Source: Aphrophora alni (Eukaryota > Arthropoda > Insecta > Hemiptera > Aphrophoridae). Taken from it: a DNA stretch of 64,000 bases. The translations under genes were made by a program, and so were the position numbers. The notes under the pieces are model-generated. The model ran no database searches and was not told the DNA's origin. It worked only from the letters and a program-made list of their open reading frames with translations. Shown here piece by piece: positions 22,110 through 60,696 of this stretch (the stretch's first letter is position 1; the number at the start of each line of letters is the position of its first letter). Location: assembly GCA_963513935.1 (NCBI GenBank), contig OY740769.1:33011120-33075119 (forward strand). The letters run 5' to 3'.

Positions 22110-22299
22110 TTTAAAGATAATAAAACACAATTATTTATTTTGTATATCCACTTATAATTAGTCTAGCCGACCAATGGTTTCGCCTGTTAAGGCATTGACG
22201 AGGCTGTATTACAGACTGAAGAAAAAAGACAAAAACAGAAAACCTTAAAACTAGAGGGTGGGAGTTAGGATACAATGAATGGAAGGTTGGGGAAATACC
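22110..22299 (+). repeat. Left inverted terminal repeat of the Penelope-like element
   Basis: It starts TTTAAAGATAATAAAACAC, ends GGAAGGTTGGGGAAATACC, and is the reverse complement of 23564-23753. A 22-base direct duplication (GTAGAATCTCTTATGGATAGAA) immediately follows it at 22300-22345. Confidence 0.9.
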
Positions 22300-40247: not shown

Positions 40248-43200
40248 CTGAAACAAAGACAATTACATTTTTTTTTTTTTAAACTTTATATAAATATACC
40301 AACAGAGCACAGTAGAATGGATATTTTACTAAATCCATACTTTTTTATTACTTCACATTTTTTTTTTTTACTACAAATTCATAATATTTATCTGTAGAAA
40401 ATTATGTGAATGATAAGGGTTTGTAATCTAATTTTATCCCAAGGGAAGTTTGTATTTCTTTTGTTGGAACAAGAGTGTCCAATTCCCATCCTTAGTATTG
40501 CCCATTTCAAAACAAAAGATTTAGTTTAAACTCGAAGGAAAAAAAACTTGTGCTCGACAACAGGCATGTTAAAAAGTTTGATAAAAAGTCTGAGCTCAGT
40601 TTTAATTAAACAATTGTAACAACTCGAAAAAGATGTTGTCAATAAATAATTTATCATGCAAATTTATATTAATTCCATTCATTTCAAACGACGACATACA
40701 CGCGCCTAGCGGCAAGAATGCGAAACGCCAATCCAAAACAATGTCAAATTTCAAGATTTTCGACCGGACAATAATTAATTAACGTAACTTACCAAATTTT
40801 AAACCTAGGAAGACCTATATAAAAATTAAGGCTAAATATTCGATCTGCCCGTAAAAATTAACAACTCAAAGGCAGAGATAAGGAAATAAAAATAATCTGC
40901 TTTTATCAAGACGAAAAAGTCAACCAAATAAATTACCAGTTTGAAATACAGTGTCAGTATTTCGCCGATTGTAGAAATACAGAAAGCCTAGAGACCAAAC
41001 AAACCAGGCCTATATATAAACCATATATCCCTGAACATAAAACGTCACCTGAGTTCTTATTTAGAATCAAAAAAAAAAGGTAAAATCTTTCAAATTACGG
41101 CCGAAAGTCATTGTCAAGATGGCGGACGAAAGAAATCAATTAAACTATAGCCTAATTAATTGTGTTTCCATTGATATTGGTGTTGCAATAATACCCTACG
41201 ATATGTATATGAACTATTGTGTTGACAAAATAATTCCCAGAGATATGGACTCTAATAATTGCTCGTGTTTTCCATTTATATGTGTGTTATAACAATTACT
41301 CGAGATATATATATATATCTAAAAACTCTTACACCATTTAACTTTTTTTTTTATAATATAAAATTTATAATTTCAATTGAAGTAATTTAAGACAAAGCTT
41401 TTTATGATAACTAACTAAAAGACTGTAATCATCTTTAATGACAATAAAATAATTTATATCGAAATAGAATCTATATTAATATTTATTAATAGAGAAAATT
41501 TGTAACAATAAACATTACATTGTAATAACTAAAAAAAAAAAAAACAATTATTATACAATTCAGGCTGACACACCCCTATATAACTTTTAACCTAACCCAA
41601 CTAGATTTACGGAGAAACTCTAGATGGTATAAAATAATTAATTATGTATACAGCTATATTTTATTATGTTACAACACTATACATTTGTATTGTTGTTTTC
41701 TATGTTTTTAGATAGAATATGATAGCTTTTAGTCAAAAAGTATATTCATTAATTAAAAATAGACTTAAACATGATGCAAAGACTGCCACAATTCTCTGTT
41801 TCAAACAGACACAAAAACAAACACAGGAGAGTGCCAATCGGTGTTATAACACTGGACAACCTTATCGCTAATTCTCTGTACTTATGAATATTAACATTGA
41901 CATGATCAGAACCACTAGAACTATTTAAATACAGGTATTCAATGGGGGTGATTAACACCCTCTCCTGTTGTTGATATCTGTAGACTAAGACAAAACTGAC
42001 AATTCACAATTGCAAAATTGTCGTCCTTCCATCATTCAATAAGACAAAAAAAGAACATGTTCTTACAGACATAGAAGGAAGTCAGATCTCTAGTCGAGGA
42101 ACAAAACACATAGGAAGTTATTGGCGCATGCCTGCAAATATTTCTGCTGAGACAGCTTTATTTCCACTGATGTATTCGCCCACTCCTAATATTTAGTGAG
42201 GAGGAAGACACATATTTTCATCTTCAAGTGTTATCAGTTTTTAGATTCGATGTGACACTAATAAATTAAAAATTTAAAATCATAATATTGGAGAAAAGTT
42301 AAAGTAATACTTACTTTAGAGCTTGAATAATATGCAAATGAATTGTATTTTGTTTTACAGAGAACATTTCGTAATATTGAGGAAGAAAGCAGTGTTATGT
42401 TGACTGTGATCAAGTAGAATCTCTATTGTAATTCTTGTTTGAATAAATCAGAGAACAACTAATAGTTAATGAGCTGTTAGGCTCAAATAATTTTATATTA
42501 AATTTAATAATTTAAGGTGAAATGGTTTTTATATATCACAATATATTACAGTAGGCAGTTAACACAAATAAATATTATGTGAAAAGCTTTATAAAATAGT
42601 AGAACGTAGTAGAATAGCATTTTTACTGCCCAACATATTTTTGGAAGATGCAAAATCAACCATTTTAATTATATCATATAGAAGTGAAACATAGACAATG
42701 AACAAATTACAAGGCAGCATTTATTACTTCTAATCAACATACACTATTTCTTTATAAAACTCAAAATTGTTTAACATTTCCCAAGGTTTTACAAACGCTC
42801 AACCTCAAAATCCTCTTTAGAATAATACAATTAGTGTAGTAAAATAATAAGACAATTTTGACACTCATGAATCAAAAAATCTTTAGTATAATATAATATT
42901 ACAAAATTTGTACCTAACCATGTTTAAAAAACAAACAACTTACTTCGGTTTCTTTGAAATAGATTGAGACCTGGATTTGGATCTGGACTTCTTAGGTTCA
43001 GACCTGGATCGAGATCGGGACTTTGATCGTTCATGAGACCTAAATCAATAAATTAGATACATTAATCATAATTAATATCATTAGAATAAGAGACCAAATT
43101 GTATTACTAATTTTAAAGAGAATTATTTTCTCTTTAACCTTTAGCTCATTTTGTAAATTTCTTCTCGTTTATATGAAAAATTTATAATTTTTTTTTTTTT

Positions 43201-46200
43201 ATATCAACATTTATATAGGCTTTTCTGTAAAACGTTTACTTCATTTTTTGATTCCTAACATACTTACGCCAAAACCATAACATAATAATATACAATTTTT
43301 TTTCATTACACAAATAAATTCTAAGCACCTTTCTGAGAAAGATGATGTGTTATAAGTTGGGTTTTGCATAATATTACTATTTTTTTATGAATTAAAAAAA
43401 AAAAGGAAAAGAAGATAAAAAGAAACCGTTAATATATACCAATTTTAGGATTAAACCAAGTGTGTTGTCTTAGACTATCCAGGACCTGAAAACGACTAAG
43501 TGTTAATTTTAAAATGCAAATTTTATTCTGTATAAGGTTCGAGTTTAATCAATATTAAATTAGTGCTCTTTAACCCTCCATCTGGCATACATACGTGGTC
43601 GATGAATGACGGATAGTTCAATTAAAACACGTATTTTGCAATTCAACATTTCGCCAACTTACAATCGCCCTATCGCAATAAATAAAATACCGTTGGAAAG
43701 CTAATGTTCCGTAGATGCATAATCATGCAAAAATACCACAAAACGTTATAAATAATATTCCAAAAAATTGCTAAAGTTTCATATTTCTGATACTTAACCT
43801 CAAAGATTTCCGCTGACAAGTTGTAAACAAAACTAATGTCATTTTTCTCTAATATTCCCAATTCGATATTTCTGTCAAACAGATCGACCATAACACTGTT
43901 AGATAGATCACATCTTTCTCTTTCAATCCGTGCTTTCCAAATATTTATATCTGTTATAGTTTTTATTATATAAAAATTACATTTTTTTCACTTCAACTTT
44001 AATCATAGTAGATATTATTTTATCAAAATATATAATATATCATTGTAAAGGTTGTTTCAATCTTTCATAATCAAGTTTAGCAAAATCAATCACATGAAAA
44101 CTATATTTTCTAGAACTCGATAAAGTTGCTGACTTTTCGGCTAGTCGCCTCACTTGCCGTGACCGGGTTTAAATAGGAAATTCTGTACTCTGTGTTCATA
44201 TAATTTTACGAAATGGTAATACTTGTCCAAATGCCACAAGTTGACAATATTATATAGTATTTTTCTTTCTCTTTCGAACTATGAAGTCGAAATTATCCTA
44301 ATTCATTCTACACACTACTCCTCGGATTTTACTCACCGGTTTGTTTAGACACTTTTGAAGATTTCGATCTTAACTTTTATATAATATTTCCGTTTTTGGT
44401 ACTACTATGAAGAGGAATATTGGATTAACAATTTGGTATATGAATCTAATGTAGAGTCACAAAATAACATAGGCAGTGGATAACCTAAAACCGGGTGAAA
44501 ACTAAGGATTATTCTCCATTTTGTGTTGTGTCGTTTGGTGAATAAAAAGTGAGTTGCTTTTATTCAAGTGTGTTTTTATTGAATATTGTGAAGTTATACT
44601 TTTATGAGTGATATACTTATTATATCTGTATTATTGTTTGTAGAATTTATTGTTTTGAGTGAGTGAATGTTATTGTCAGAAATCTAATACTTAGACTGTC
44701 TAGAGATATGTTATATCTCGTCTAACCTTTTTAGCAAATTTCCATTTGTTTACATATAAAAATAATTTTGTCAAAATGAAAATTTTATAAATGGATTTAT
44801 TTTACCAAAATGTATATAAATTTATATAGGCCTATCTATATTTATGTAAATATACCATTTGGCATTTTGCCTTTGGTTTTTGTAAGAATTTTTGATTTCC
44901 GAGATACTAATGAAAATTTTATAAATTAATTTTTCTTTTTAGCAACTTTTATCCACAAATATATTACATGCACCTTTCTGAAGGAAATGATAATTTGTAG
45001 TTGTGTTTTGCATAATATTACTATATTTGGTGATTTTTTTCAAATTAGGCAAAACATTTTCCCTTTTTTCATAAAACATTTTTTGTTTTGTTTTGAAAAT
45101 GTAACAAATTATTATTTTTATTAATATTTTATTAATTTTGAAACAAATGAAGAAACTTTACATTGCCAGTTCTAGGGTTAAGTATCAAACAAGCATTTAT
45201 AAGGGAAATTGGGATCTTTATGGCAAATCCTTTTACAAAATTATACACAAACAAAAATGTAGTATGAAAATATTGATAAAGCCAATTTTTCAAAAATCTT
45301 TATTTTATCTTCTTAGGCTCGCTACTGCAATTTAAATTATTATAATCTTTTTCACATATCAAATTAATTACAAATCATATCATTTATACAAATCTAGCCC
45401 CTACTTTTATTATTTTCCCTTCTCTTTTGTAAAATAGGTCAAATAAAAAAATATATCAGAAAGGAATAATAATTTTCCTTCGGAGATATGGCTTAAAGAA
45501 AATATGTCCAGCCTATTGGGTCTTACTGCTCGAACTACAGATAAATATCATTTCCAAAATAAATTTTGTATACTCATGCGAATTCAAGAAAGATCCTTCT
45601 ATGAATTATAAATATTTAAAAAAATGTTTAAATAGTTGTTTCATTGAGGTTTCAATATCAATGCAATGTAAAAACCAAAATGCCTTTTAGTAGTATAATC
45701 AAATTCCCTTCCTAACCAAGTTACTAACCTTTTCAGGTTTACTCAGACTAATTTTCTTATGCCAGATATTCCTTTTTATTTATTTTAAATTAAACTAATC
45801 AACTTAAACATTCATTGCATAGATTAAAATAAAATAGATGAATTTCTATAACAACTATTTAGGCTCCCAAATATATAATTTAGTTAAAATAATATTAAAA
45901 TTTTAAAAGTTGCTCAGTTAAAGTTAAACATCAATAAGACTCAGCCGAAAGATGGAAAAAGTATCATTGCAACTTTATTAAAATGTCCTTTAATAGTATA
46001 ATCAAATTTCCTGACCAACCATATTCCTTAACTATTCCAGGTTTTCTCCAAGTGTCTCTGTTGAGGTATCAATATCAGTTATTGTAAAAACCGTAACTGT
46101 AACTTTAATAAAATGCCTTTTATAATAGTATAATCAAATTCCCTGTCCAACCAAATTCCTAACCTTTTCAGGTTTTCTCCGACTGTAATTTTCTAATGCC

Positions 46201-49200
46201 AGGTATTCCTTTTTATTTTTGAGTTTTCAAAAATATAAAGGGAAATTAGAATACATGCATTTATTTTAAACTACACCTAATAAACTTAAACCTTCATTAC
46301 ATAGATGAATTTCATTTAACAACTATTTGGATTCAAGGCTACCAAATATATAATTTAGTTAAAAAATTCAAGCAGACTTTTCTTCCACAAAAAATAAGAC
46401 TCCAAGTTCATGCAAGAAAGTAAAATAATATTAAAATTTTAAAAGTTGCTCAGTTAAAGTTAAACATCAACAAGACTCAGCCGAAAGATGGTAAAAGCAT
46501 CATTGCAACTTTATTAAAATGTTGTTTAATAGTAAAACCAAATTCCCCAATTTTTTCAGGTTTTCTCAGACTGTACAACTCTGCAGGTTTTTTATGCCAG
46601 GTATTTGGAGTTAGGAAAAAATGTGAAGTTTTAGAAGATTCTCAGTTTAAGTTAAACATCAATAAGACTCAGCCGAAAGATGGTAAAATCATCACTGCAA
46701 CTATATTAAAATGTCCTTTAATAGTATAATCAAATTTCCTGACTAAAACCATATTCCTTAACTATTCCAAGTTTACTCCAAATGTCTCCGTTGAGGTATC
46801 AATATCAGTTATTGTAAAAACCGTAACTGTAACTTTAATAAAATGCCTTTTAATAGTATAATCAAATTCCCTGTCCAACCAAATTCCTAACCTTTTCAGG
46901 TTTTCTCCGACTGTAATTTTCTAATGCCAGGTATTACTTTTTATTTTTGAGTTTTCAAAAATATAAAGGAAAAGTATAATACATGCATTTATTTTAAACT
47001 ACAGCTAATGAACTTAAACCTTCATTACATAGATTTCAATAAAATAGATGAATTTCATTTAACAACTATTTGGATTCAAGGCTACTAAATATATAATTGA
47101 GTTAAAATTTCAAGTAGATTTTTCTTCCACAAAAAATAAGACTCCAAGTTCATGCGTGAAAGTAAAATAATATTAAAATTTTAAAAGTTGCTCAGTTAAA
47201 GTTAAACATCAATAAGACTCAGCCGAAAGATGGTAAAAGCATCATTGCAACTTTATTAAAATGTCGTTTAATAGTAAAACCAAATTTCCTAACTTTTTCA
47301 GGTTTTCTCAGACTTGTACAACTCTGCAGGTTTTTTATGCCAGGTATTTGGAGTTAGGAAAAAAATGTGAAGTTTTACAAGATTCTCAGTTTAAGTTAAA
47401 CATCAATAAGACTCAGCCGAAAGATGGTAAAATCATCACTGCAACTATATTAAAATGTCCTTTAATAGTATAATCAAATTTCCTGACTAAAACCATATTC
47501 CTTAACTATTCCAAGTTTACTCCAAGTGTCTCCGTTGAGGTATCAATATCAGTTATTGTAAAAACCGTAACTGTAACTTTAATAAAATGCCTTTTAATAG
47601 TATAATCAAATTCCCTGTCCAACCAAATTCCTAACCTTTTCAGGTTTTCTCCGACTGCAATTTTCTAATGCCAGGTATTACTTTTTATTTTTGAGTTTTC
47701 AAAAATATAAAGGGAAATTAGAATACATGCATTTATTTTAAACTACAGCTAATAAACTTAACCCTTTGCGCTCGAATAGGGTCTTTAAAAAAGTTCCTCT
47801 GGAGTCGTATGGCCACTGGGAGTGGCCACGCCATTTTCTATATCAGCTTGGAATTGTTTTCGCAGTCTTGGTCCGCCCAGCTCGTATGGCCAACACAAAA
47901 TCTTGCGAACACTCGCATGGCCACCGTGAGTGGACATAGCATTACGTATCTATGAATAGCTTTTTTGTATTCTCAAAATTATATTATTTTCTGTGGAAAG
48001 TGCTGGAATCTGTAGGGAAACTCTTGAACTATATGAACAATGCATGATTTCTTTCCCTCCTTTTATAACGACTGTGTTGAATTCCATAATATAACCTCTA
48101 TATTTTCTCTCAGTGCTGTGCTAGTCGTTGTTATTGGCGTGATAAATTGTTGATAATTTTAATATTATAAAGTTACGAAAATGGATAATTTAAATTCAGA
48201 TGAAATTAGAAATGAGTTCGAAAGAGATGTTGAGTTAGATTGTGATCTGTTATTTATATAATAAATATAAAAATATAACGTCTTTATGAGGTTGAAATAC
48301 TATGTAATACCATGTTTTCTATTTCAAATAAGTTGTATTTGTCAATAAACAGAGCTTATTTATAAAATATTCATGTTTGCTCTTTTAAATAGTTACCTAG
48401 ATGTCAAGTGAATTCAACAAAACAATTCCGAGCTGGTGATGCCGTCCGGTCAAAATGGCAGACGAGTAACAGCCGACGAACGAGTGGCCACTCACGGTGG
48501 CCATGCGACCTGAGAGGACTAAGCTCACGGGAAATAATACAAGGTGTCTACGAGTCGGGTGTGGCCACTGGTAATGGCCTTTCGAGCGCAAAGGGTTAAA
48601 CCTTCATTACATAGATTACAATAAAATAGATGAATTTCATTTAACAACTATTTGGATTCAAGGCTACTAAATATATAATTGAGTTAAAATTTCAAGTAGA
48701 TTTTTTTCCCACAAAAAATAAGACTCCAAGTTCATGCGAGAAAGTAAAATAATATTAAAATTTTAAAAGTTGCTCAGTTAAAGTTAAACATCAATAAGAC
48801 TCAGCCGAAAGATGGTAAAAGCATCATTGCAACTTTATTAAAATGTCGTTTAATAGTCAAACCAAATTCCCTAACTTTTTCAGGTTTTCTTAGACTGTAC
48901 AACTCGGTTTTTATATGCCAGGTATTTGGAGTTAGGAAAATGTGTCGTTTTAGAAGGTGCTCAGTTTAAGATAAACATCAATAAGACTCAGCCGAAAGAT
49001 GGTAAAATCATCACTGCAACTATATTAAAATGTCCTTTAATAGTATAATCAAATTTCCTGACTAAAACCATATTCCTTAACTATTCCAGGTTTACTCTCT
49101 AAGTGTCTCCGTTGAGGTATCAATATCAGTCACAGTAAAAACCATAACTGTAACTTTAATAAATAGCCATTTAATAGTACAGTAGAACCTCTGTTAACCG

Positions 49201-51412
49201 GCCTATTTCGTAGTGTATTGGTTCAATGAGAGTTTCCGAAAATAAATTGTAATTGAAACACTAAAGCGGCGGCGAGTCAAAAAACTTTGTCGATAACGGT
49301 ATTACATTGTCGGCGGCGTAAAATAACCGCGGCATTGGCACCCGTCGTTATAGCAGACACACACAGACAAAAATGTTTGATGGGCCGCTTTTTTTCCACA
49401 AATCAATTTAGTATACATTATGGAAAATATAACATTTCTTTTCAGTTTCTCCTTGTCTTTGACTGGTTATGATCTACGTACAGTATATACAGTAAATATA
49501 AATGAGCGAGTTATGAAAACGGAAGCGTGTGTTGGTTTCATTTGAGACACGGTTAAATGTGTTAAAAAAGACTTGACAGATGGGAATCTGTAAAAAAAGC
49601 TTTGTAGTGTTTAATTTTTTCATGTTTGATGTTTGATGTATAATATACATAACATAATGTATACGATAAATTTATGTACAATAAAATGAGTTGCAATAAC
49701 ATCTTAATTGCATAATTCTTAGCGATACCTGATTAAATAAGCTTTCTTTGAACTAAAACCGATTTTTCACGGGAACCTCGAATTAACCGGCCCGGGTGTC
49801 AGTCCCGACTAGACCGGTGAGAGGTTCTACTGTATAATCAAATTCCCTGCCCAACAAAATTCCTAACCTTTTCAGGTTTTCTCTGACTGTAATTTTTTCT
49901 TATGCCAGGTATTCCTTTTTATTTTTGAGCTTACAAAAATATAAAGGGAAATTAGAAAACATGCATTTATTTTAAATTACAGCTAATAAACTTAAACCTT
50001 CATTACAATAAAATAGATGAATTTTATTTACCAACTATTTGGATTCAAGGCTACTAAATATATAATTGAGTTAAAATTTCAAGTAGATTTTTCTTCCACA
50101 AAAAATAAGACTCCAAGTTCATGCGAGAAAGTAAAATAATATTAAAATTTTAAAAGTTGCTCAGTTAAAGTTAAACATCAATAAGACTCAGCCGAAAGAT
50201 GGTAAAAGCATCATTGCAACTTTATTAAAATGTCGTTTAATAGTAAAACCAAATTCCCTAACTTTTTCAGGTTTTCTCAGACTGTACAACTCTGCAGGTT
50301 TTTTATGCCAGGTATTTGGAGTTAGGAAAAATGAAGTTTTAGAAGATTCTCAGTTTAAGTTAAACATCAATAAGACTCAGCCGAAAGATGGTAAAATCAT
50401 CACTGCAACTATATTAAAATGTCCTTTAATAGTATAATCAAATTTCCTGATCAACCATATTCCTCAACTATTCCAAGTTTTCTCTAAATGTATACATCAA
50501 AGTTTTCTTATGACTAATCAAGTTAAACTTTTAAGGCACAAATGACATAACAAAACAGATGAATATCATAAAAAAGTTTTGTATTCAGAGACTCTCAAAT
50601 GTACATTTTAGAGAGTTAAAATTCTTCAGGAGATTTTTCTTTCACAACTCTATAGTTTATACGAAAAAGTAAAAGAAGATTTTTAAAAGGATTAGGAAAA
50701 TATTGACATTTTCGAAGTTGCTCAGTTGAAGTATAGCATCAATAAGACTCAGCCGAAAGATGGTAAAAACATCATGGCAACTTAGTTAAAAGTTAGAGTT
50801 AACTCCTTACTTTCTGAAAGTCATGCTTTTTAAATGGATAGTACAATATAAATTTCATTTATACATAAAATGAAAATAATACTTGGGATCTCTGAAAAAT
50901 ACGTCTCCCAGATATATAAAAAAAATATGATCCCTGTCGAACGTTGATATTGTAAAAACTGATATTATCAATACACATTTTTTGACATTGACCTCCTAAA
51001 CTATCTCTTTACTTTGTTCATATACATAAGAAAAAGGATTAAGACTTTTTTAGGATAATCAAATTGCTCAGTTTAAGTCAAGCATCTCATATGACTCAGC
51101 CGAAAGATGGCAAAAGCATCATTGTAATTTTATTAAATATTATTTAAAAAACCAGCAAAAATAAAACTGTCGACTAAGTAGAAAAATAGTGTTTTACGCA
51201 TGTATGACTAATATCTTCACACCCTCAGTTAGTATCCAATTTGATTAAAAAATAACCAATTAACACTTCATAATAAGAAACCACGACCTTATGTATCAGT
51301 TATTTCACCCCACTCCAAGTTTTCTTTTAGTTATTATATTTAAAAATAATCTCAACTAATTTCATTTGTGCTGCAAACTCTTCTGCCCTGACAACTCTTA
51401 GTTGAACATATG

Positions 51413-51465
<53 letters not shown>

Positions 51466-54400
51466 TGTAATTATAACGAAATTTTTCTTACAAATAAAAT
51501 TTTTATTGATAAATATATATATTTATTAGGGATAAGACGATTAGCTTACAGATTAATTGTTACAGCGATTATTACAGTAATCTATGAATACGATTAATTG
51601 CAGATTCATACTTCTTTAACAGATTCAGGCTTAACGATTAGAGCTCAACACAAAAAAAAACTTCTTCCTTTAAAGCAAAAAATTCCTTTTGATCATAGCC
51701 TTATAAAAAAATGAATATAAAAGAGACACATTTCCCTTTTGATACTCCTCATTAAACAGGAAAAAAAAAGGTTATGAAGCAATTGGAAGACGTATTTTAA
51801 TTGAAAACAAAAATAGCAGATCAGCATCATAATTCACATTTATAATTTTAGCTATAAAACAAAGGCGAGCAATTAAAAAAAATGTAATTTACTACTTCTT
51901 AAACAAAAATAAGGGTGGACAACAGTCCTAAAATTATTCAACTCTTGATTTTTTGAGCTTGGCTCAATTTTTCGAGCTCAACTCGATTTTCCAAGCTTTT
52001 ACAAGCCTGGCTCTATATTAAAACAAATCCTAAACTGATAGAATAATATTGTAATGAAAGCTAACTATAACATGAACTGTAGAAATGAGAAAAAACAATC
52101 ATAATTGATATTAGATCCTAAACTGATAGAATAATACTGTAATGAAAGCTGGCTATATCATGAACCGTTGAAATGAGAAAAACAATCATAATTGATATTG
52201 GATCCTAAACTGATAGAATAATACTGTAATGAAAGCTGACTATATCATGAACCGTTGAAATGAGAAAAACATTCATAATTGATATTGGATATGAAACATA
52301 CAGATATGATGATTATCTTTAGTCACCTTCTCAAGAGATAAAAACAAGTATTTATTATTAACTTGTGTAGATCAGAGGAAATTACCAGAAAAAAGGTGTC
52401 CTCACTTGACCGCTCAAATCTGATCACTTGATGTCAACACGCATCACTGAAGACGTACGGAAGCGGAAACCAAAATGTACTAGTTTTATTTAAAAAGACA
52501 AATAAAGAAAATCCAATTTCAAAATTATAAGTGAAAAGAAAAAATTAATTTAATTCCATTGTGTTAAAAAGAAAATTAACATTATATAAATATATCTCAG
52601 AATTGAAGAATATTGTCGAAGTGGAACATTACAGATTGAGAATGACAAAATTTTAACAAACAAATAGCCCACTGCATGTTTTTTAACCCTTTCAGTACCA
52701 TGCATTTTTACTCATACTTTTAATATCAAAAGTAAAGACAAGTTTTTAACCTCTTGATGCCCACGCCCGCATATATGCGAGCAGACGACTGCCCTGCCTC
52801 TCCCAATAATCTTTTCCCGGATGTTTATCTTTTCGCCGGCCGGCGCCGGTGAGTCACCGCGATGCTCGACGTAGCGATAGCTGCATTACTTATCGGCCAA
52901 CGGTACACAATACACATACTTCGTATCATGACATTAAATAATAAATACTGCTCTCTTAAAAAAGAATGGTTATTGCCGTTTTGGATGCACGATGCACAAT
53001 CTTGTCTGAAGACATTTTACCTTATTTTAGTAATTTCTTGACAATACTCACAAAAATATTGTTATGATAGGGGGGGGGGGGTGTGCAGGGTCCGTCGCAG
53101 GTCCGGGTCCCGGTAAAATTTCCCGAAAAATCCTGGTGTAGGCTCGCGGGCCCGTTATCGCCGCCACTGAGTGAAAGAAATATGATATACAAAGATTTCA
53201 ATAATAAAAGCTAACCGAGGCAAAACTAACTAAAATATATCAAAAGACAATTTAATCATTTGTATATATTTTGTAGTCAGAATAATAGAAAGTTCCTTTA
53301 TTAATCTTGTATTTTCTGTACAAGGGAAACTATGTAACAACTCACCAACTTCTTAGAATTAAGTAAAACAAAATCTGTTTACACATATCCACAGACTTTT
53401 ATTTCATTAATTTAATTATACTACAACATATGAAACGAAACGAACTATTCATTCTTAGCTGATTCTGATACTATGCAGTACAAGTACTCCTGTCCCTCGA
53501 TCTCTTATTTTGTACTGGTCTCCTCTTAGTCAACAGGCTAAAGGGATGTGAGCCCCCTCCCGAGGGGGAGAATTGGTGATATCAATGAACTTGATATTCA
53601 TTGGTGCAGACACTAAAACACAGACCTAGAGAAGAAAGATCTAGCAGTTTTAGGGTCTGACTTGTGTATTGTGTCTAGGAATGAGGCAACAAAGTCAATT
53701 TGTTAGCTTCACAGAATTGAAATAAAACTTCTATTAAAAAACAAATGTTTTGAGAATGAACTCTTGTTATGTTTCTTCAAAAAATAGTTTAAAATGCGAG
53801 TTCCCTCCCACTCTTTAATTTTTTTTTTTTGTTATACGATTTTCAACTAACACAATTTATTTATTAGGTTGTTTTATTTACATAATTACATAAATTACCT
53901 TACAAAATTTAATTAATTGAAATAAATTTAAAGAATATTACGCAGATTATGAAATTTAAAAAAAATCCGTTCTCTTCTATCAATCAAAGCCATAAACTAC
54001 ACATTTTTTAATTCACTATTTTTTTAAACGGAAGAATACGAATAAAATATGGCAAAAAAAACCTGTAACAAAATATTAAAAAACAATGGTCTAGTCAATA
54101 AGTTTCTAGATTAATAATACAATATATAATACAATAATACAAATAATTAATTATTTCTGATTGTAAAATAAATTAAAACAATACTACGCAATTATGAAAG
54201 CAATTCAGTTTATTTTAGTCAAGGAGTTTTATCAAATAAAGGCTTATTTAACTCATTACCTATAAAATATAAATACATTACTTTTACTATGCATACGCGA
54301 GAAAAGTAACAGGTTTAAATTAAAGTTTGTTGAAGTGAGATGTACAGGTCGGAGTCTAACTAAAAGAAAATACTTAAGTGTTGGGATACACACATGCATG

Positions 54401-56659
54401 GGAGGGGGGCACAGTTGAGTCAATTTGATACTTTATAATAAACTATTACTTTTATTATCCTTACTCTACAAAATAAAAGATTATTCCTTATGAGCACTAG
54501 CCCCGAATTGTCTCATCCCTAATATATATAAAGATTACAATTACTCCCAATTATCCGCGAGCGGTTTTCCACGAGTCTTGCGGAACCAATAAGTAAAAAA
54601 AAAAAAAAAACCATGTGGTAATTAAAATTGCAATACTGTACTAGTGTAGCGTAATGTGTTTCCTGTATTGTTCTTTTGTTTTACTACAAGAACTTTCGTT
54701 TATTACACTTTTTTATTTCATGTAAAATGTAGTTTATGAACAGTATATAAGTGTTTTTACCTCAAAACTTTTATTACAGTATTTTCCCCTCTATTTTTAG
54801 CATTCTTGCAGATTATCTACGATGTCTGTGGCACCCAATCTCGCAGAAAATCGAGAGTTACACTGTATAAAGGTTTAATATATATTGAATAAGAAATTGA
54901 TACATGACTGAACTTGTTAAAAATATACCAGAAAATCAAGTCAAAAAATATGTAATGTTGCTCAGTTAAGAATTGACATCAGTACAACTCAGTCCCGAAA
55001 GATGATACAGCATCATCGCAACTTACTGTGAAGATAGAAACTGTCTCCTCAATGGGCCACAAAATCTAGAGTTTTCCCACTCCAAACAGGTTTAATTAAA
55101 ATTAACATAATGAATTAAAATATGGAATAAAAATTAAATAATAATAATAAAACAGTTGTCTGTGGTTTAATAATCCCTCTGCTGCTAAATTACAACAATT
55201 TAGTCTTATTTTTTTATACTCTTTACTGATTGAGAAAGTGAACAGTGTTTATGAAACATTTCAGAACTCTAAATGTTTCATTGTGTTTTACTATTTGTGT
55301 ACTACTAAGTAATACCAAGGACCACTTTCCAAGGTAAGCCTGAGTCTTCTATCCATACATAATCAAAACATAATAGACTATTATTAAAACCCTAGAACTG
55401 GCAATGCAAACTTTCTTCGTTTTTTTATAAAAATAGTATTTTTATGAAAAACTATAAAAATGGTAATTCTATAATTTCAAAGATGCATAGAATTTATCTA
55501 TGTAATGAAAAACAATGAGATGTAAAGGTTTTGGAGTAAGTATGTTAGGAATCAAAAAATAAAGTGAACATTTTACAGACAAGACTAAATAAATTAAAAA
55601 TAATTTATTTTTACAAGATATACAAAAGTTTTGAAATGTAATTGTGAATAAATGTTGATAAAAAAAAACATTTTGTAAAATTTTCATATGAACAAATTTA
55701 AAAAAAAAAATTAGCTAAAAATGTTAAGCCCAATTTGAAAAAAAATCAATAAAAATAGTAATATTATAGAAAACACATTTTCTTCTTATCACTTTTCTAT
55801 CGAGCTGTGTAATGAAAAAACTTTTTAATGTAAAATATTTGGAGTTCGTATGTCAGGAATAAAAATTTCTTACAAAAACCCATGTCAAAATTCCACATGA
55901 AAGCCTATATTACAATACAAACAACATTTTTCAAAAATATAGAAAAGTATTTGTACTATATTTGTGCATAAATGTTAGTAAAAACAAAAATCAATTTATA
56001 AAATTTTCATTAGACAAAATTAATTTTTACATAAAAAGTGGAATTTGCTAAATGGCTAATTTGAAAAATCATCAAACAGTAATATTATGCATAACACAAC
56101 TTGTAAAATATCATTTTTAAGGTGCATAGAATTTATCTGTGCAAAAAAAAATATATGTAAAAAATTTGGAGTTAAGTATGTCAGAAATCAAAAATTCTTA
56201 CAAAATCCGCAGCCAAAATTTCACTTCAAAGGGTTTATTTACTATACTAAATAAAGAACAAAATTTTTCAATTAATACAAGATATTTGTAAAATATTGTT
56301 TTGGAAAAAAGTTGGTAAAAACAAAAATAAATATCTAAAATTTTTATTAGACAACGGAAATTTGCTAAAAGGTCTAATTTGACATAAAACCTAGACCTTT
56401 GTACTAAGTAAGTAGGCCTGAAAAAAATCACTGAAAAACATAAAATTCACTCAAAAAATAAAACTTTAAGAAACAATAACACACATATTATAACTTGTAT
56501 AAACAAATTATAACTAAAATCACTCTACATAATGAAATAAGTTTACAATAACAGAAATAAATCGAGCCTAGCACGGAAGACTATTTACTATGCACAAAAT
56601 CATGGGCGAGATGAGGGAAATATAGAATTTCCAGTTCAGAATGTATATATAAAATTAGG

Positions 56660-56723
<64 letters not shown>

Positions 56724-59700
56724 GATGTAATGGGTTGTAAAAACTAAAAGTTCTAAATTTTATGTTTATAATGATGTTCAGAACGGTTACAAAACATCAA
56801 TATAAGTTATCGATATTTCACATTTCGTGACCACTAAAAAAAAAAAATTAGTCTAGTTCGGTTGGGTTATTACGTCTAGAATGTAATATACCTAAAAAAA
56901 CTATTATAGTTATGATAATATTTGGAATATACATTTCTAAATAGAAAGAAAAATATTGTCAATTTCTAGTGTTTGGACAAGTATTACCATTTATTTTACA
57001 AAAATTATACGATGAATCAGTTTACATTTTCTTATATTGCGAAGAACCGTTGTAGTGCTGTTCTCTCGTAGCAAAACACTCCAACTTGATCAAATTCTAT
57101 ATTTTTACCTTTTGCTGTATATAATTTCGCTTACATGATTATGAAGATTGAAACATTACCTTCACAGTATATTACAGATTTCGATAAAATAATATTTACT
57201 AGGATCATAGTTGAATTGAGAAAAATGTGATGTATTTTTTGATATTTTGTTAAAATTCTTGATTAATTGTTTAATTTTTATAGATTAAAAACTATAACAG
57301 ATATAAAGATTTGGAAAGCACAGATCGAAACAGGAAGATTTGATCTATAGAACAGCGTTATGGTAGATTGTTAGACAGAAATATGGATTTGTGAAAATTA
57401 GAGAAAGAATGATGTAAATTTGTTTCACAACTGCATAGTTTTTGTGTTTTCATTGCCGTTAAACATTATAAAGATATTCCAATTATTAAAAATTTTATCT
57501 ATGGAATTCTTCTAAATGTTAACATTAAATCTACTATTTTTGACAAACATAGATCGATAAACAATGTTTTATAAGAACTGTTGAATTTTAGAAAAGTTAT
57601 TTCCTAATACCAATAATTTACCTTAAAAAACAACAAATTATTACCAAATTATAGGAGAGGGGATCAAGACAAATTTTGAATTTATTTCGGTTCAAGATGA
57701 TAATATTGCACATGACTCAATGGAAATTTGACATCATAATAACCACTAAAAATAGTGTAAAACAAATGTGTGAAGTTGCTCAGTTGAGATATGGCATCAA
57801 AATAGCTCAGCCCCGAAAGATGGTAAAGCATCATTGCAACTTATTTAAAATTTACAAATACTATTAACATAATATCATGAATAATTCTCATCCTTTGACA
57901 TTTAAGATCAAAAAGGACCCAGCAAAAGATTGTAAAAAGGAGTAATAATCAAGAAAAATATTTAATGTTGTTAAAGTTGAAACAGCATCAGCATAACTTA
58001 GCCCTGAAAGATGGTAAACAACATTGCAACATTTTAAAATTATAAATACTATTAGCAAAATAATTATCATACCTCAATTGAAACAGGGTATTAAAATAAC
58101 CCAGTTGAAGATTGTAAATGGATCATTACAACTTTATTGATATTAAAACAAAACGGATCAAGTCAAAATCTTAAAAAATGTATTATTAAGAAAAAATATC
58201 CAATGTTGCTCAGTTGAGATTTGGCATCAATAACACTCAGCCCCGAAAGATGGTAAAGCATCATAGCAACTTAGATATTAAAAAATCAGAATATTCTTTA
58301 AATATATTAATCAATTGTAAATTTGATAAAAAACTGTTTGAATATGGCTCTGTTCAACCAACTATAAATTAATATGATAAAGTCTAAAGTGATAAAAATT
58401 CACAATGTCTTTTCAATTAAGGGAAAGCTTGTAATGCTATTTATAACAAAAATACACAATGCAAAATTTGAAGTATAAAGTATATATTCAGGTAATAATT
58501 TTGAAGTAGGTTGCCCTGATATATTAAGAACAGAATTAAATATGTTTCTTTTGACGAGAGTGGGACTAATTTCTAGTTGTCATCTACAAGTTATACATAA
58601 CATTTTGAAATTGTGTACTGTATTGTATCATAGAAACATACTTAACCCTTTGAAGAGTACAGGGAAATACCGATTAACGAGTACGGCCGTTCTTGAACGT
58701 TCTCTGTGCTGTTTGCGTAAATGAGTATGGACGTTCCGGAACATTTTAGGTTACGTCTGAGCAATAAAAGTATTTATCATAAAACAAATTAGTCATGGCT
58801 TATTGTGTTGTCACAATTCAACAAGAAATAGTACTAAGAACACATGAAATCGGGTTTTTCACAATTGTAAGGCAGGACAACTCCAGGGGGCGTGGTTTCA
58901 GGAGAATTCACCATGCGTATTGATTGACGCGTAAATGTAGGCGATGGCATCGTCTTCTCCGCGGTTGTTTCCCCCCTACACACACACACCTGTGCCTATG
59001 TTCCTTGTCTAGTATAAGTGATTTGTATCATTATATTATGTTACGTATATTATACATCAAACATGAAAAATTAAACACTACAAAGCTTTTTTACAGATTC
59101 CCCTCTGTCTAGTCTTTTGACACATTTAGCCGCGTCTCAAACGAAACCAACACACGCTTCCAAGAAAATTGAAAAGAAATGTTATATTTTCCATAATGTA
59201 GGCTATACTAAATTGATTCCTGGAAAAAAAGCGGCCCATCAAACGTTTTTGTCTGTGTATGTCTGCTATACCGACGGGTGACAATGCCACGGTGTTTTTA
59301 TGCCGCCGACAATGGGATACCGCTATCAGCAAACGAAACCAACACACGCTTCCAAGAAAACTGAAAAGAAATGTTATATTTTCCATTATGTAGGCTATAC
59401 TAAATTGATTCGTAGAAAAAAAGCGGCCCAGCAAACGTTTTTGTCTGTGTATGTCTGCTATAGGCCTACCGACGGGTGACAATGATTTTTCAGTGCAAAT
59501 TTTTTTTAAAGTACATTTATCAGTGTAAATTTTTATTCTTACAAGTTTTTAACACAATATTATTATATTATTATACATTTGTAACCAATAAAACAACTAT
59601 TTAAAATTTTTTTTTTCTTACTCCTTGACAACAATTTTCTTTGTAAATACTTACTAACCAGCTGTTGGCTATTTGGGACGTTCAGGAACGGCCGCACTCG

Positions 59701-60696
59701 TCAAAGGGTTAATTAATTATAATGTAATAATGTAACAACTCTAATAATATTTTTAAAACCAATTTAGTTAAATACAATTACAATGTTATTTCAAACAAAA
59801 GAAAAACTTGCTTACTTTGATCGAGACTTTGACCTTGAAGCAGATTTTGAATGACCCCTTGATCGACTACTACGTCGGCTGTGACTTCGAGAACTACGTC
59901 TGGACCTACGGTAAAATAACAACAATGTATCATATTTAAACAGTGATTAATTGAATAGCTTTTTATAATACTATTTAGAAGCCACCATAAAAATTAATTG
60001 ATAAAATGATTTAATTCTCTCTGTTAATCACAGAACTCACATTATTACTTATATACTTATTTTAACAATATTGCTCAGTTAAAATTATTCATCAAATTTA
60101 TTCAGTCGAAGGATGGTAAAATATCATGCAACATTATTAACCTAATACCATATTAATTTTACCAAAGCTGTGGGGGGGGGGGGAAGGAGAATGAACCAAA
60201 CAGATAACCGAAGTTCCAAGTTAGCTGTATTATTATTTAGGTAAAGATTTGGCCAAGTCTTTTATTATAATACTGTGTGTCATACATTTCCAGTTTATAT
60301 TGAGTTACAATATTAAGAAAAATTGCTTAAACAAATTGTAATGAAAAATTACCTAGAACGTGAGTGAGAACGACGCCTTGAACGTGATCTAGATCGGGAT
60401 CGAGAACTTGAAGAACGCGATCTACGAGAATGGCGTCTATCTTCCACTAAACGAACCCTACGGCCGTTAAGTTCCGTGTCATCAAGCTTATCCAAAGCAT
60501 TTTTCATATCAGAAAGTGTTGCAAATTCAACCACTCTATAAAATAAAAGAAACATTTCATTAAAATTTGTCTTGGTTTAAATATTTTTTTTTATTGTTTT
60601 CAAAGATATAGAATTCACTTACCCTTCATTCCTTCGATCTTTGTGTGCATCAGCGTATGTAACTTCACCAGCTTGCCGCATGTAATCTTTCAAATC
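40142..60696 (-). CDS. SR splicing factor (SRSF4/5/6, B52/SRp55 type), 3' five coding exons
   Basis: SR proteins bind exonic enhancers through RNA-recognition motifs and recruit the spliceosome through phosphorylated Arg/Ser repeats (family knowledge). Coding exons seen: 60696-60623, 60535-60353, 59905-59816, 43039-42944 and 40247-40142, all with AG acceptors and GT donors and with matching phases. The first two carry the pseudo-RRM (RRM2): [20 protein letters not shown] and then [20 protein letters not shown]...[12 protein letters not shown]. The upstream exon ending in the S-W-Q-D motif and RRM1 are beyond the window. The rest is the RS domain ([20 protein letters not shown]...), ending in an acidic tail [13 protein letters not shown]. 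The visible part is about 182 residues. The 16.8-kb intron 59815-43040 and the 447-bp intron 60352-59906 contain a same-sense box C/D snoRNA array, so the gene is also a snoRNA host. Paralogue-level naming is uncertain. Confidence 0.92.
42944..43039 (-). CDS. SR gene exon: RS domain
   Basis: 96 nt, acceptor GATTTAG, donor GTAAGT. It encodes [20 protein letters not shown] and [11 protein letters not shown], phase-compatible with both neighbours (1-nt completion at start, 2 nt left at end). Confidence 0.9.
43574..45177 (+). mobile_element. Non-autonomous TTAA element, family T1 copy B
   Basis: The element is flanked by TTAA (43570-43573 and 45178-45181), with ends CCCTCCATCTGGC and inverted CCCTAGAACTGGCAATG. 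It shares the block from CACGTATTTTGCAATTCAAC through AATACCGTTGGAAAGCTAAT with copy A (18054-19776). It is inserted in the long intron of the SR gene. Confidence 0.75.
45906..45976 (-). ncRNA. Box C/D snoRNA copy 1 (type A, degenerate box C)
   Basis: Minus strand: 8-bp closing stem AAAGTTGC/GCAACTTT, box C changed to ATGATAC, box D' CTGA, C' TGATGT, D CTGA. The guide TTTTTCCATCTTTCGG has lost one base match (A to T) relative to its sisters. It is probably impaired. It ends the array on the 3' side of the host intron. Confidence 0.65.
46442..46512 (-). ncRNA. Box C/D snoRNA copy 2 (type A)
   Basis: Read on the minus strand: closing stem AAAGTTGC/GCAACTTT, box C ATGATGC, guide TTTTACCATCTTTCGG directly before box D' CTGA, box C' TGATGT, box D CTGA. 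The guide pairs with the 28S rRNA motif CCGAAAGATGGTGAA (one G-U). The fifth base from D' faces the second A of the GAAAG run. It is in the sense of its host intron, as intron-processed snoRNAs are. Confidence 0.85.
46637..46702 (-). ncRNA. Box C/D snoRNA copy 3 (type B)
   Basis: Minus strand: canonical box C GTGATGA, guide TTTTACCATCTTTCGG, D' CTGA, C' TGATGT, D CTGA. The closing stem is weak (AGTTGC against GAATCT), with two mismatches, which may affect stability. Confidence 0.75.
47184..47254 (-). ncRNA. Box C/D snoRNA copy 4 (type A)
   Basis: The same structure as the copy at 46442-46512 with an intact 8-bp stem, C, D', C' and D boxes and identical guide. Confidence 0.85.
47381..47446 (-). 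ncRNA. Box C/D snoRNA copy 5 (type B)
   Basis: Canonical box C GTGATGA, guide TTTTACCATCTTTCGG, D' CTGA, C' TGATGT, D CTGA. It has the weak closing stem typical of type B. Confidence 0.75.
47762..48595. mobile_element. piggyBac-type MITE with TTAA duplication
   Basis: CCCTTTGCGCTCGAA at 47762 is inverted at 48581-48595, with TTAA on both sides (47758-47761, 48596-48599). Sister repeat units show the empty site AATAAACTTAAACCTTCATT, which proves insertion into TTAA. GC-rich subterminal motifs (TGGCCACTGGGAGTGGCCAC, ATGGCCACCGTGAGTGG) occur near both ends and may be transposase sites. A short frame [20 protein letters not shown] at 48181 may be the relic of a transposase N-terminus. Confidence 0.9.
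48766..48836 (-). ncRNA. Box C/D snoRNA copy 6 (type A)
   Basis: 8-bp stem AAAGTTGC/GCAACTTT, box C ATGATGC, guide TTTTACCATCTTTCGG, D' CTGA, C' TGATGT, D CTGA. Its unit carries the 834-bp TTAA MITE in the spacer on its left. Confidence 0.85.
48956..49020 (-). ncRNA. Box C/D snoRNA copy 7 (type B)
   Basis: Box C GTGATGA, guide TTTTACCATCTTTCGG, D' CTGA, C' TGATGT, D CTGA. The closing stem GTTGC/GCACC has only one mismatch, so this is the best-closed type B copy. Confidence 0.8.
49180..49832. mobile_element. pogo/Tigger-type MITE with TA duplication
   Basis: CAGTAGAACCTCTGTTAACCGG at 49180 is matched by inverted CAGTAGAACCTCTCACCGGTC at 49832, with TA on each side. Sister units read AATAGTATAATCAAATTCCC without it, which gives the empty site. 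Interior text (GGCGGCGTAAAATAACCGCG to TGTTGGTTTCATTTGAGAC) recurs inverted in the element at 58646-59708. Confidence 0.9.
50153..50223 (-). ncRNA. Box C/D snoRNA copy 8 (type A)
   Basis: Intact type A: 8-bp stem, box C ATGATGC, guide TTTTACCATCTTTCGG, D' CTGA, C' TGATGT, D CTGA. Confidence 0.85.
50345..50410 (-). ncRNA. Box C/D snoRNA copy 9 (type B)
   Basis: Box C GTGATGA, guide TTTTACCATCTTTCGG, D' CTGA, C' TGATGT, D CTGA, weak closing stem. Confidence 0.75.
50715..50783 (-). ncRNA. Box C/D snoRNA copy 10
   Basis: Outside the tandem unit, with diverged flanks. Stem AAGTTGC/GCAACTT (7 bp), box C ATGATGT, guide TTTTTACCATCTTTCGG, D' CTGA, C' TGATGC, D CTGA. The guide is unchanged although the rest has drifted, which suggests selection. 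Confidence 0.85.
51061..51130 (-). ncRNA. Box C/D snoRNA copy 11 (diverged)
   Basis: Stem AAATTAC/GCAATTT with one mismatch; base changes on both arms keep most pairing. Box C ATGATGC, guide CTTTTGCCATCTTTCGG (A to G, giving a G-U pair with 28S), D' CTGA, a weakened C' (GAGATGC), D CTGA. Confidence 0.7.
51415..51463. repeat. (TA)n microsatellite
   Basis: About 24 TA units in the SR-gene intron. Confidence 0.95.
51525..54522. mobile_element. Possible hAT-type element
   Basis: TATTTATTAGGGATAAGACGATTAG near 51520 is mirrored by ATTGTCTCATCCCTAATATATA near 54512-54530, consistent with hAT-like TAGGGATRAGACRATT termini. I saw no transposase. The interior contains the 52028-52291 tandem repeat, a GC-rich patch (52745-52880) that starts with TTAACCTCTTGATGCCC, and another patch with a G-run at 53070-53165. 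This may be a composite. Confidence 0.45.
52028..52291. repeat. Tandem repeat, unit 87-89 bp, three copies
   Basis: CCTAAACTGATAGAATAATA, TGTAATGAAAGCTRRCTATA and AATCATAATTGATATTRGAT recur three times in direct orientation from 52028, 52117 and 52204. Confidence 0.9.
54533..54865. mobile_element. Tigger-like MITE, degenerate
   Basis: The right end read inward is CAGTGTAACTCTCGATTTTC followed by TGCGAGATTGGG, a typical Tigger/pogo terminus, next to TA. The left end ATTACAATTACTCCCAATTA followed by TCCGCGAG is a decayed version. No coding capacity in 333 bp. Confidence 0.6.
54957..55022 (-). ncRNA. Box C/D snoRNA copy 12 (shifted register)
   Basis: Stem GTTGC/GCAAC, box C GATGATGC, guide GTATCATCTTTCGGGA before D' CTGA (one G-U with 28S), C' TGATGT, D CTGA. 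Two additional bases lie between TTTCGG and D', so the fifth base from D' faces the G of CCCGAAAG rather than the second A. Confidence 0.8.
55205..55385 (-). repeat. Inverted copy of a segment at 13690-13860
   Basis: GAGAAAGTGAACAGTGTTTATGAAA, CTAAGTAATACCAAGGACCA and CTTTCCAAGGTAAGCCTGAG match the reverse complement of text at 13690-13860 next to the hAT-like relic. The repeat stops where the T1 copy C begins. Confidence 0.65.
55386..57440 (-). mobile_element. Non-autonomous TTAA element, family T1 copy C (inverted, truncated)
   Basis: It starts with CCCTAGAACTGGCAATGCAA (the right terminus of copies A and B, inverted). It runs through repeated TTTGCATAGAATTTATCTGTG-like blocks to GATCTATAGAACAGCGTTATG and TTAGACAGAAATATGG (57345-57390), the reverse of the left part of copy A. 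The far terminus with CCCTCNACCTGGC is missing. It contains (TA)n at 56662-56719. Confidence 0.65.
56662..56719. repeat. (TA)n microsatellite
   Basis: About 29 TA units inside the T1 copy C. Confidence 0.95.
57773..57842 (-). ncRNA. Box C/D snoRNA copy 13 (shifted register)
   Basis: 7-bp stem AAGTTGC/GCAACTT, box C ATGATGC, guide TTTACCATCTTTCGGGG before D' CTGA, C' TGATGC, D CTGA. It has the longer GGGG spacer, hence the same shifted register as the copies at 54957 and 58205. Confidence 0.85.
57967..58030 (-). pseudogene. Box C/D snoRNA fossil
   Basis: The stem GTTGC/CAAC and a guide-like TTTACCATCTTTCAGGG remain, but D and D' read CTAA, and box C is reduced to AATGTT. This copy should not form the C/D protein-binding motif. 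Confidence 0.7.
58085..58137 (-). pseudogene. Box C/D snoRNA fossil, older
   Basis: Plus-strand ACCCAGTTGAAGATTGTAAA and GGATCATTACAACTTTATTG align with the D'-guide-C part of the intact copies. Another trace lies at about 57900-57945 (GACCCAGCAAAAGATTGTAA). The boxes are partly lost. Confidence 0.5.
58205..58270 (-). ncRNA. Box C/D snoRNA copy 14 (shifted register)
   Basis: Stem GTTGC/GCAAC, box C ATGATGC, guide TTTACCATCTTTCGGGG before D' CTGA, C' TGATGC, D CTGA. Very similar to the copy at 57773. Confidence 0.85.
58646..59708. mobile_element. TTAA-flanked MITE containing a nested, duplicated segment
   Basis: TTAA at 58642-58645 and 59709-59712 flank CCCTTTGAAGAGTACAGGG and inverted CCCTTTGACGAGTGCGGCCG. 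Near the ends, motifs such as ACGGCCGTTCTTGAACGTT, ATGGACGTTCCGGAACATT and GGACGTTCAGGAACGGCCG repeat. The interior 59040-59480 resembles the 49180-49832 pogo MITE in reverse. It includes a direct duplication of about 150 bp (59139-59290 and 59331-59480). Confidence 0.8.
59816..59905 (-). CDS. SR gene exon: RS domain
   Basis: 90 nt, acceptor ACCGTAG, donor GTAAGC. It encodes [20 protein letters not shown] and then [10 protein letters not shown] plus two bases. Confidence 0.9.
60067..60135 (-). ncRNA. Box C/D snoRNA copy 15 (separate intron)
   Basis: It lies in the 447-bp intron 60352-59906. 8-bp stem AATGTTGC/GCAATATT with one G-U, box C ATGATAT, guide ATTTTACCATCCTTCGA with one internal mismatch to 28S, D' CTGA, C' TGATGA, D CTGA. 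It lies 162 bp upstream of the next exon. It may be the oldest member or the source of the array. Confidence 0.75.
60353..60535 (-). CDS. SR gene exon: RRM2 end and start of RS domain
   Basis: 183 nt, acceptor TTTTATAG, donor GTAATT. It completes the split Gly and reads [32 protein letters not shown] and then Ser/Arg repeats. Confidence 0.92.
60623..60696 (-). CDS. SR gene exon: RRM2 first half
   Basis: 74 nt encoding [20 protein letters not shown] and RRNE plus two bases. It is preceded by AAAG and followed by [19 protein letters not shown] is the invariant pseudo-RRM signature. Confidence 0.92.

Follow-up and report, generated by a model that had tools for sequence, protein, structure and literature searches.

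We identified 15 box C/D snoRNA copies on the minus strand of a 64,000-nucleotide stretch of the Aphrophora alni genome (hereafter the window; C4:33011120-33075119, in an assembly of 1.70 Gb and 388 contigs). They extend over approximately 45906-60135, in the sense orientation within two introns of a gene that, judged by its predicted product, is an SR gene of the B52/SRSF4-6 type; one copy is located in intron A and 14 in intron B. Counting four more in a third intron beyond the window, the introns of this host contain at least 19 locally duplicated C/D snoRNA copies. These very probably represent canonical intron-encoded C/D guides, of the snR39b/SNORD2 and snR39/SNORD51/Me28S-Am982 kind, which have multiplied by local tandem duplication within a single SR gene. 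The first-pass annotation of this DNA had already described at least 15 sense copies in two SR-gene introns, and this is borne out by 15 copies scoring 71-100 bits, by GT-AG introns and by an open reading frame. It had also described one snoRNA in these two introns, which has to be revised, as there are two guide classes within the window (12 A-type and 3 G-type copies) and a dual-guide type in the third intron, into which the array continues.

Host gene and snoRNA inventory

The four host exons within the window form a single open frame interrupted by GT..AG introns, and their product comprises most of RRM2 and an RS domain.

60623..60696, minus strand: host exon, part of RRM2 (in-frame joining)
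60353..60535, minus strand: host exon, remainder of RRM2 and start of the RS domain (in-frame joining, domain match)
59906..60352, minus strand: intron A, 447 nt, contains c1 (GT..AG ends)
59816..59905, minus strand: host exon, RS domain (in-frame joining)
43040..59815, minus strand: intron B, 16.8 kb, contains 14 of the 15 copies (GT..AG ends, frame kept across)
42944..43039, minus strand: host exon, RS domain, at the 3' end of intron B (in-frame joining)

The preceding RRM2-side exon lies just outside the window, at positions 1149-1081 of the adjoining upstream stretch (L009, C4:33075120-33085000). An RRM_1 match of 51 bits is found in the host product, and among solved structures SRSF6 is its closest relative (E 4.5e-40; the match spans residues 1-83 of a 170-residue query that includes the preceding exon). 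The two RRMs and the RS domain that characterise B52/SRSF4-6 proteins are represented, RRM1 only as weak upstream pieces: the exons encoding its end are approximately 23 kb farther upstream and have weak blast support (E 0.004-0.007). Also beyond the window, at approximately 33099.5-33099.7 kb of C4, there is a pair of neighbouring exons that each encode an RRM1 end (RVIVEHARGTARRGDR... and RVSVEKARGTPRGSDV...) and that both possess splice-like ends, an arrangement that suggests mutually exclusive exons of the SR gene.

A covariance model (R1) built from the 15 copies scored all of them at 71.4-100.5 bits on the minus strand, values that are descriptive and not independent proof, since the model was made from the copies themselves. 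The copies and the two relics that follow them in score are listed below, each located with this model.

60067..60133, minus strand: c1, A-type, in intron A; guide mismatches at -1 and -6; best Rfam match fly snoMe28S-Am982, 38.9 bits
58202..58271, minus strand: c2, G-type; Rfam SNORD2 34.6 bits against a cut-off of 37
58060..58133, minus strand: unnamed relic, model 24.6 bits
57964..58031, minus strand: c3, decayed G-type; D' CTAA, D lost; model 42.2 bits
57772..57841, minus strand: c4, G-type; Rfam SNORD2 42.4 bits, above cut-off
54954..55023, minus strand: c5, G-type; Rfam SNORD2 49 bits, above cut-off
51060..51129, minus strand: c6, A-type; one break in the stem, C' AGATG
50714..50782, minus strand: c7, A-type
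50342..50410, minus strand: c8, A-type beta, terminal stem weakened
50153..50221, minus strand: c9, A-type alpha, stem intact
48953..49021, minus strand: c10, A-type beta, stem weakened
48766..48834, minus strand: c11, A-type alpha
47378..47446, minus strand: c12, A-type beta, stem weakened
47184..47252, minus strand: c13, A-type alpha
46634..46702, minus strand: c14, A-type beta, stem weakened
46442..46510, minus strand: c15, A-type alpha
45906..45974, minus strand: c16, A-type alpha-like; one guide mismatch (11-bp duplex), C box UGAUA

After the 15 copies, the best model matches were the relics at 42.2 and 24.6 bits; weaker matches were individually non-significant, and the best score in positions 1-41000 was 16.5 bits. 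Evidence independent of the model comes from the Rfam matches described below and from a search expression covering C, guide, D', C' and D. Composed after inspection of the copies, this expression matched 14 of the 15 on the minus strand (c6 was missed), and nothing on the plus strand or in any of 100 dinucleotide shuffles of the window. The search of the region with C/D models that the first-pass annotation had proposed, carried out with the covariance model and with Rfam, yielded 15 copies, two of which pass the SNORD2 cut-off.

The array displays the sequence features by which box C/D snoRNAs are recognised, namely terminal C and D boxes with a stem, internal D' and C' boxes, and rRNA complementarity of at least approximately 10 nt. 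Both D and D' read CUGA in every copy. The C box is RUGAUG in 13 copies and AUGAUA in c1 and c16, and the C' box is UGAUG in all copies except c6, where it is AGAUG. The earlier statement that every copy has a stem together with C, D', C' and D boxes is accurate for D and D', but four of the 15 copies (c8, c10, c12 and c14) have a weak stem, with a run of only 3 bp, and c6 has a broken one. Terminal stem runs of 4-7 bp are present in 10 of the 14 copies read by script, c6 being included with a run of 4 and a break, and the stem of c1, read by eye, is UUGC/GCAA. Despite their weak stems, the beta copies c8, c10, c12 and c14 have intact boxes and guide.

Splicing-coupled assembly of C/D snoRNAs is favoured at a particular place in the intron, far from the positions of the intron-B copies. 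As these copies sit 2.9-15.2 kb from the 3' splice site, the output of each may be low. The arrangement of 14 copies in intron B may point to stem-dependent processing that is independent of position, or to hidden exons. It is quite unlikely that the array acts in cis, with the snoRNAs or their snoRNPs affecting splicing of the host SR transcript. A precedent is provided by human SNORD2, described as masking the branch point of EIF4A2 intron 3 (PMC10324135); the present host is itself a splicing regulator, and c1 is located in a short intron between RS exons. Yet the distance of the intron-B copies from both splice sites, at least 1.5 kb, argues against such a role, and exact complementarity to the A-type guide along the transcript strand of the window (guide only, no wobble) extends to at most 9 nt, at 5069, a position 38 kb past the last host exon seen.

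Guide types and predicted 28S rRNA sites

In box C/D snoRNAs the fifth base of the duplex upstream of D or D' specifies the methylation site. The window array contains two SPECIFICITIES, told apart in alignments by a two-base difference between guide and D'. The D' guide itself is common to both types and is directed to 28S CCGAAAGAUGG. In the 12 A-type copies (c1 and c6-c16) D' follows directly after the guide, which places A1057 opposite the fifth base before D'; in the three of G type (c2, c4 and c5) two extra bases precede D', such that the fifth base pairs with G1055. In this numbering, position 1 is where the Rfam LSU rRNA match begins in one rDNA locus (L014; 1317.9 bits). When the fifth-base register was compared with a 27-base 28S target, it fell on A in 12 of 12 A-type copies, and on G in 3 of 3 G-type copies and in the dead copy c3. 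Copy c1 reaches the A with two mismatches, and its register is assigned from this 27-base comparison only.

The 28S target string occurs five times in the assembly, and LSU rRNA was recognised by Rfam at three of the four loci checked. The string is also present in a sequence from IMG/VR (L011), the scanned part of which has no Rfam match above cut-off and which was left aside. A bacterial match (L039) was rejected as a chance match within what looks like a histidine-kinase frame.

Duplexes of 14-15 bp with the genome's own 28S, wobbles included, are formed by 8 of 10 tested copies, with scores reached by 0-1 of 200 shuffled guides. The duplex of c16 is 11 bp (score reached by 21 of 200 shuffled guides), and the guide of c1 is interrupted by mismatches (137 of 200), its best 28S match being elsewhere. 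The conservation of the rRNA guide noted earlier is supported, with mismatches in c1 and c16. Comparison with a 17-kb rDNA stretch gave the G or the A as top target for 13 of the 15 copies, c11-c15 all finding the same A; the exceptions were again c1 and c16. No consistent 28S target was found for the D guide of the window copies; that of c2 alone scores 11 at 28S 120 (0 of 200 shuffles), and its sister c4 is without it.

In chicken, 28S-G-1457 (assigned to snR39b) and 28S-A-1459 (snR39/snR59, U32 and U51) are tabulated two nucleotides apart (PMC2653536). We predict that G1055 corresponds to the SNORD2/snR39b site and A1057 to the snR39/SNORD51 site, and that both are 2'-O-methylated.

Four further copies, scoring 25.1-26 bits with the covariance model, were encountered on the same strand in the next 10 kb upstream. 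They occupy a third host intron of 23 kb, between the RRM1-end and RRM2 exons.

L009 1430-1507, same strand as the window array: dual-guide copy (model)
L009 6653-6730, same strand as the window array: dual-guide copy (model)
L009 7050-7127, same strand as the window array: dual-guide copy (model)
L009 9723-9800, same strand as the window array: dual-guide copy (model)

These copies combine a G-type D' guide, pairing over 10-11 bp to G1055, with a D guide of 12 bp, and the two duplexes are adjacent on 28S (D at 1040-1051, D' at 1052-1061 or 1062). The D guide predicts 2'-O-methylation of C1044. For this D guide, 0-1 of 200 shuffles score as high in all four copies; for the D' guide the counts are 14, 7, 9 and 2 of 200. 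The D' guide is short (10 bp) in three of the four, those reached by 7-14 of 200 shuffles. Agreement among these copies is not independent, since three of the four cores are identical and the 12-nt D guide is the same in all four. One of them (d3) aligns with Rfam SNORD2 at 28.1 bits, below the cut-off. The chicken table of PMC2653536 has no entry for 28S-C-1446, which we count as the equivalent of C1044, and the text of a fly preprint, its site tables lying outside the comparison, contains none of Am982, Gm980 and Cm969.

Genomic location and growth of the array

A blast search of the genome with c15 gave 14 places, all in the host gene, c5 being missed. A pattern comprising guide, D' and C' likewise found 14 of 14 matches there, and 17 of 17 when its leading C was omitted (14 in the window array and 3 upstream); a reversed-pattern control gave one match. 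All seven places found by blast with an upstream dual-guide copy were also within this gene. No dispersed copies outside the host gene emerged from these blast and pattern searches of the 1.70-Gb genome. The exact pattern recovers 14 of the 15 window copies (not c1) and three of the four upstream, so that approximately one in ten such variants could hide elsewhere; the form typified by c1, CATCNTTCGN{0,3}CTGAN{4,14}TGATG, is distinct from the standard-guide pattern searched. Exclusive location of the standard guide in the host gene is well supported, although not proven.

The first-pass annotation had named a transposon with copies elsewhere as one finding that would overturn its reading, and none came to light in these searches. 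It is extremely unlikely that the array arose from a mobile element, either a snoRNA-derived retroposon or a transposon, that carried the snoRNA and accumulated at this locus. Two transposon-like elements are indeed present in intron B (47758-48599 and 49180-49832), but they interrupt the young snoRNA units and do not carry them, and the repeat itself is a tandem one with long flanks. The genome places (14 of 14, 17 of 17 and 7 of 7) are all in one gene and on a single strand; the 17 pattern matches within the host gene argue against a dispersed transposon. The element at 47758-48599, between snoRNA units, is TTAA-ended with inverted ends CCCTTTGCGCTCGAA and is presumably piggyBac-like. The element at 49180-49832, beside c10, has inverted ends CAGTAGAACCTCT, and we take it to be Tigger/pogo-like. 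A further TTAA-ended element, with a AAAGGGTTAA end, spans 58642-59712 and includes an internal repeat at 59138-59462 that is in part a reverse match to 49286-49415. Elsewhere in the window we noted pieces of a DDE_Tnp_1_7 transposase, which we assume to be of piggyBac origin, in two frames on the minus strand (16734-17643), and an open frame (22279-23505) encoding reverse transcriptase and GIY-YIG domains, presumably Penelope-like. Three 87-bp tandem repeats in intron B (52027-52290) appear by eye to be unrelated to the snoRNA.

The young copies are arranged in tandem units of approximately 745 bp, each with one alpha and one beta snoRNA, and long matches between units are 93-95% identical. 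Among four young units, 1 of 69 columns varies in the alpha core and 4 of 69 in the beta core; in the spacer, 31 of 351 columns vary by substitution and 45 of 351 when gaps are included. With gaps counted, the alpha and beta cores together (5/138) differ from the spacer (45/351) at a Fisher p of 0.0015. Substitutions only give p 0.05 for the cores together and 0.04 for alpha (0.08 and 0.04 before end-column trimming).

The older copies are more divergent. Core identity among c1-c7 and c9, with the dead c3 included, is 67-90% against a shuffle level of about 50%. Over the 100 bases on either side of the same copies, identity mostly resembles that of shuffled sequence (43-66% against 48-56%); the clearest exceptions lie downstream of c2 and c3 (66 against 54), upstream of c3 and c4 (62 against 53) and downstream of c2 and c7 (61 against 53). 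Gapped blastn aligns c7 and its downstream 200 bases with the alpha units at 70.7% over 280 nt, and c2 with c3 at 72% over 125 nt, which indicates that the older flanks are not all unrelated. The earlier description of flanks that vary accordingly holds for most of the older copies, and fails for the recent units and for the flanks joined by these links. In seven older copies identity is 100% in D' and D, 95% in C, 94% in C', 91% in the guide and 89-90% in the stems, compared with 53-68% for the loops and for the spacer that separates the C box from the guide. Stem, boxes and guide of the older copies look as though they have been kept by purifying selection.

Decay is also apparent. Beside the beta copies there are gamma elements, judged to be relics by eye only; their flanks are homologous, and the tested core is at shuffle level (49-53%). 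In the third intron, decayed copies alternate with the dual-guide copies in 397-bp tandem units. A tree of the cores, each of approximately 70 bases, built to see if A-type copies arose here from G-type ones, had no starred branch. In this tree c1 groups with fly Am982 at 89/89, and topology tests rejected neither an array without c1 on one side (p 0.225) nor the A-type with c1 on one side (p 0.106).

A reading with a substantial chance, although one somewhat below even, is that most of the array is pseudogene debris: one or a few copies would supply the snoRNA and the rest would be neutral by-products of tandem duplication without a dose effect. The weak or broken stems of c8, c10, c12, c14 and c6 are in keeping with this, as are the relics at 57964-58133 and in the upstream array, and the 93-95% identity over whole young units means that youth alone accounts for much of their likeness. 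On the other hand, the four beta copies all have undamaged boxes and guide, and c2, c4, c5, c6 and c7 retain both while their loops and most of their flanks differ, which suggests that several separate copies have been retained. Debris of this kind can be accommodated within the multiplication of canonical guides by local duplication; the two differ on the number of copies that matter.

Relation to known snoRNAs and implications

The gathering score of Rfam SNORD2 (RF01299), which is 37, is exceeded by c5 and c4, with c2 falling below it. At a lowered threshold SNORD2 matches extend down to E 1.7e-7 and ceN109 matches to 3.4e-8, the latter under the curated ceN109 score. Matches of A-type copies to snoMe28S-Am982 (38.9 in c1, cut-off 49) and to ceN109 (45.6 in c7, cut-off 52) stay under the gathering scores. 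We have filed the A-type copies as snoRNAs that probably work like snR39, snoMe28S-Am982 and ceN109, and not as members of an Rfam family. Four copies score marginally above the SNORD36 cut-off (30.4-31.2 of 30) with weak E values (0.54-0.82). In the SNORD36 alignment of c1, which is not among these four (28.5 bits), agreement in the guide is small, and the likeness is treated as confined to the boxes.

SNORD2/snR39b, and plant snoR39BY as well, share with the G-type copies the D' guide, its spacing to D' and the predicted G. SNORD2 is also intron-hosted, but in EIF4A2 and not in an SR gene, and in contrast to it there are here three G-type copies and relics in the window, and four dual-guide copies upstream. 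The A-type copies correspond to snR39/snR59/SNORD51/SNORD32, snoMe28S-Am982 and ceN109, which have the same guide, placed two bases closer to D', and an A target. Copy c1 and the fly snoMe28S-Am982 family have CGACUGAA in common, and ceN109, judging from its guide, would direct a site of the chicken A1459 type. Unlike these snR39-type families, the A-type is represented by twelve copies in one gene.

The first-pass annotation considered the expansion undescribed, which is too strong. C/D families are reported to gain copies mostly via recombination inside one host gene and to be mostly small (PMC8178906), and the present array resembles such ordinary animal families duplicated in cis in that one family is spread across the introns of a single host. 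Large tandem C/D arrays with subfamilies are known as SNORD115/116, SNORD113/114 and rat Bsr; these are orphan snoRNAs in repeated lncRNA introns, the first four being imprinted (PMC11028025). In contrast, the present array carries rRNA guides and has 14 copies within one intron of a protein-coding gene. Animals mostly have one snoRNA per intron, several in one being termed an intronic cluster (PMC11028025), and intron B is far outside this habit. A search by title of the open-licence PMC literature found no C/D array in an SR gene. Arrays of this kind are known, and what sets the present one apart is the combination of canonical 28S guides, three apparent specificities on one 22-nt stretch, many copies per intron, a protein-coding SR host and no further genomic source found.

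C/D snoRNAs encoded in introns are liberated through splicing, debranching and trimming, and they serve as guides for fibrillarin (PMC11028025). In the present case, transcription and splicing of the SR gene would release the introns, from which the snoRNAs would be trimmed before or while joining the core C/D proteins. A-type guides would methylate A1057 and G-type guides G1055, and the dual-guide copies would add a D guide to 28S 1040-1051 with methylation of C1044, such that the guide types would compete for one 28S stretch. Recent copies would have come from the tandem units of approximately 745 bp and 397 bp, part of them decaying, in a process of birth and death by unequal exchange.

We suggest tentatively, and consider it rather unlikely, that the SR gene is the only genomic source of guides for the 22-nt 28S stretch 1040-1061, where guides for C1044, G1055 and A1057 would compete in doses set by copy number, and methylation would follow SR output. 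If this were true, C1044 would be a site beyond those of the chicken table (PMC2653536), and 14 snoRNAs would be freed from one animal intron, against the habit of one per intron. The copies illustrate how a two-base change beside D' can separate two methylation sites, and the array could show how many snoRNAs one animal intron yields. Since its location is apparently exclusive, this single locus could reveal if the supply of guides is limiting for rRNA methylation. As an array of canonical rRNA guides hosted by a protein-coding gene, it would mean that large C/D arrays can grow without orphan snoRNAs in a lncRNA and without imprinting.
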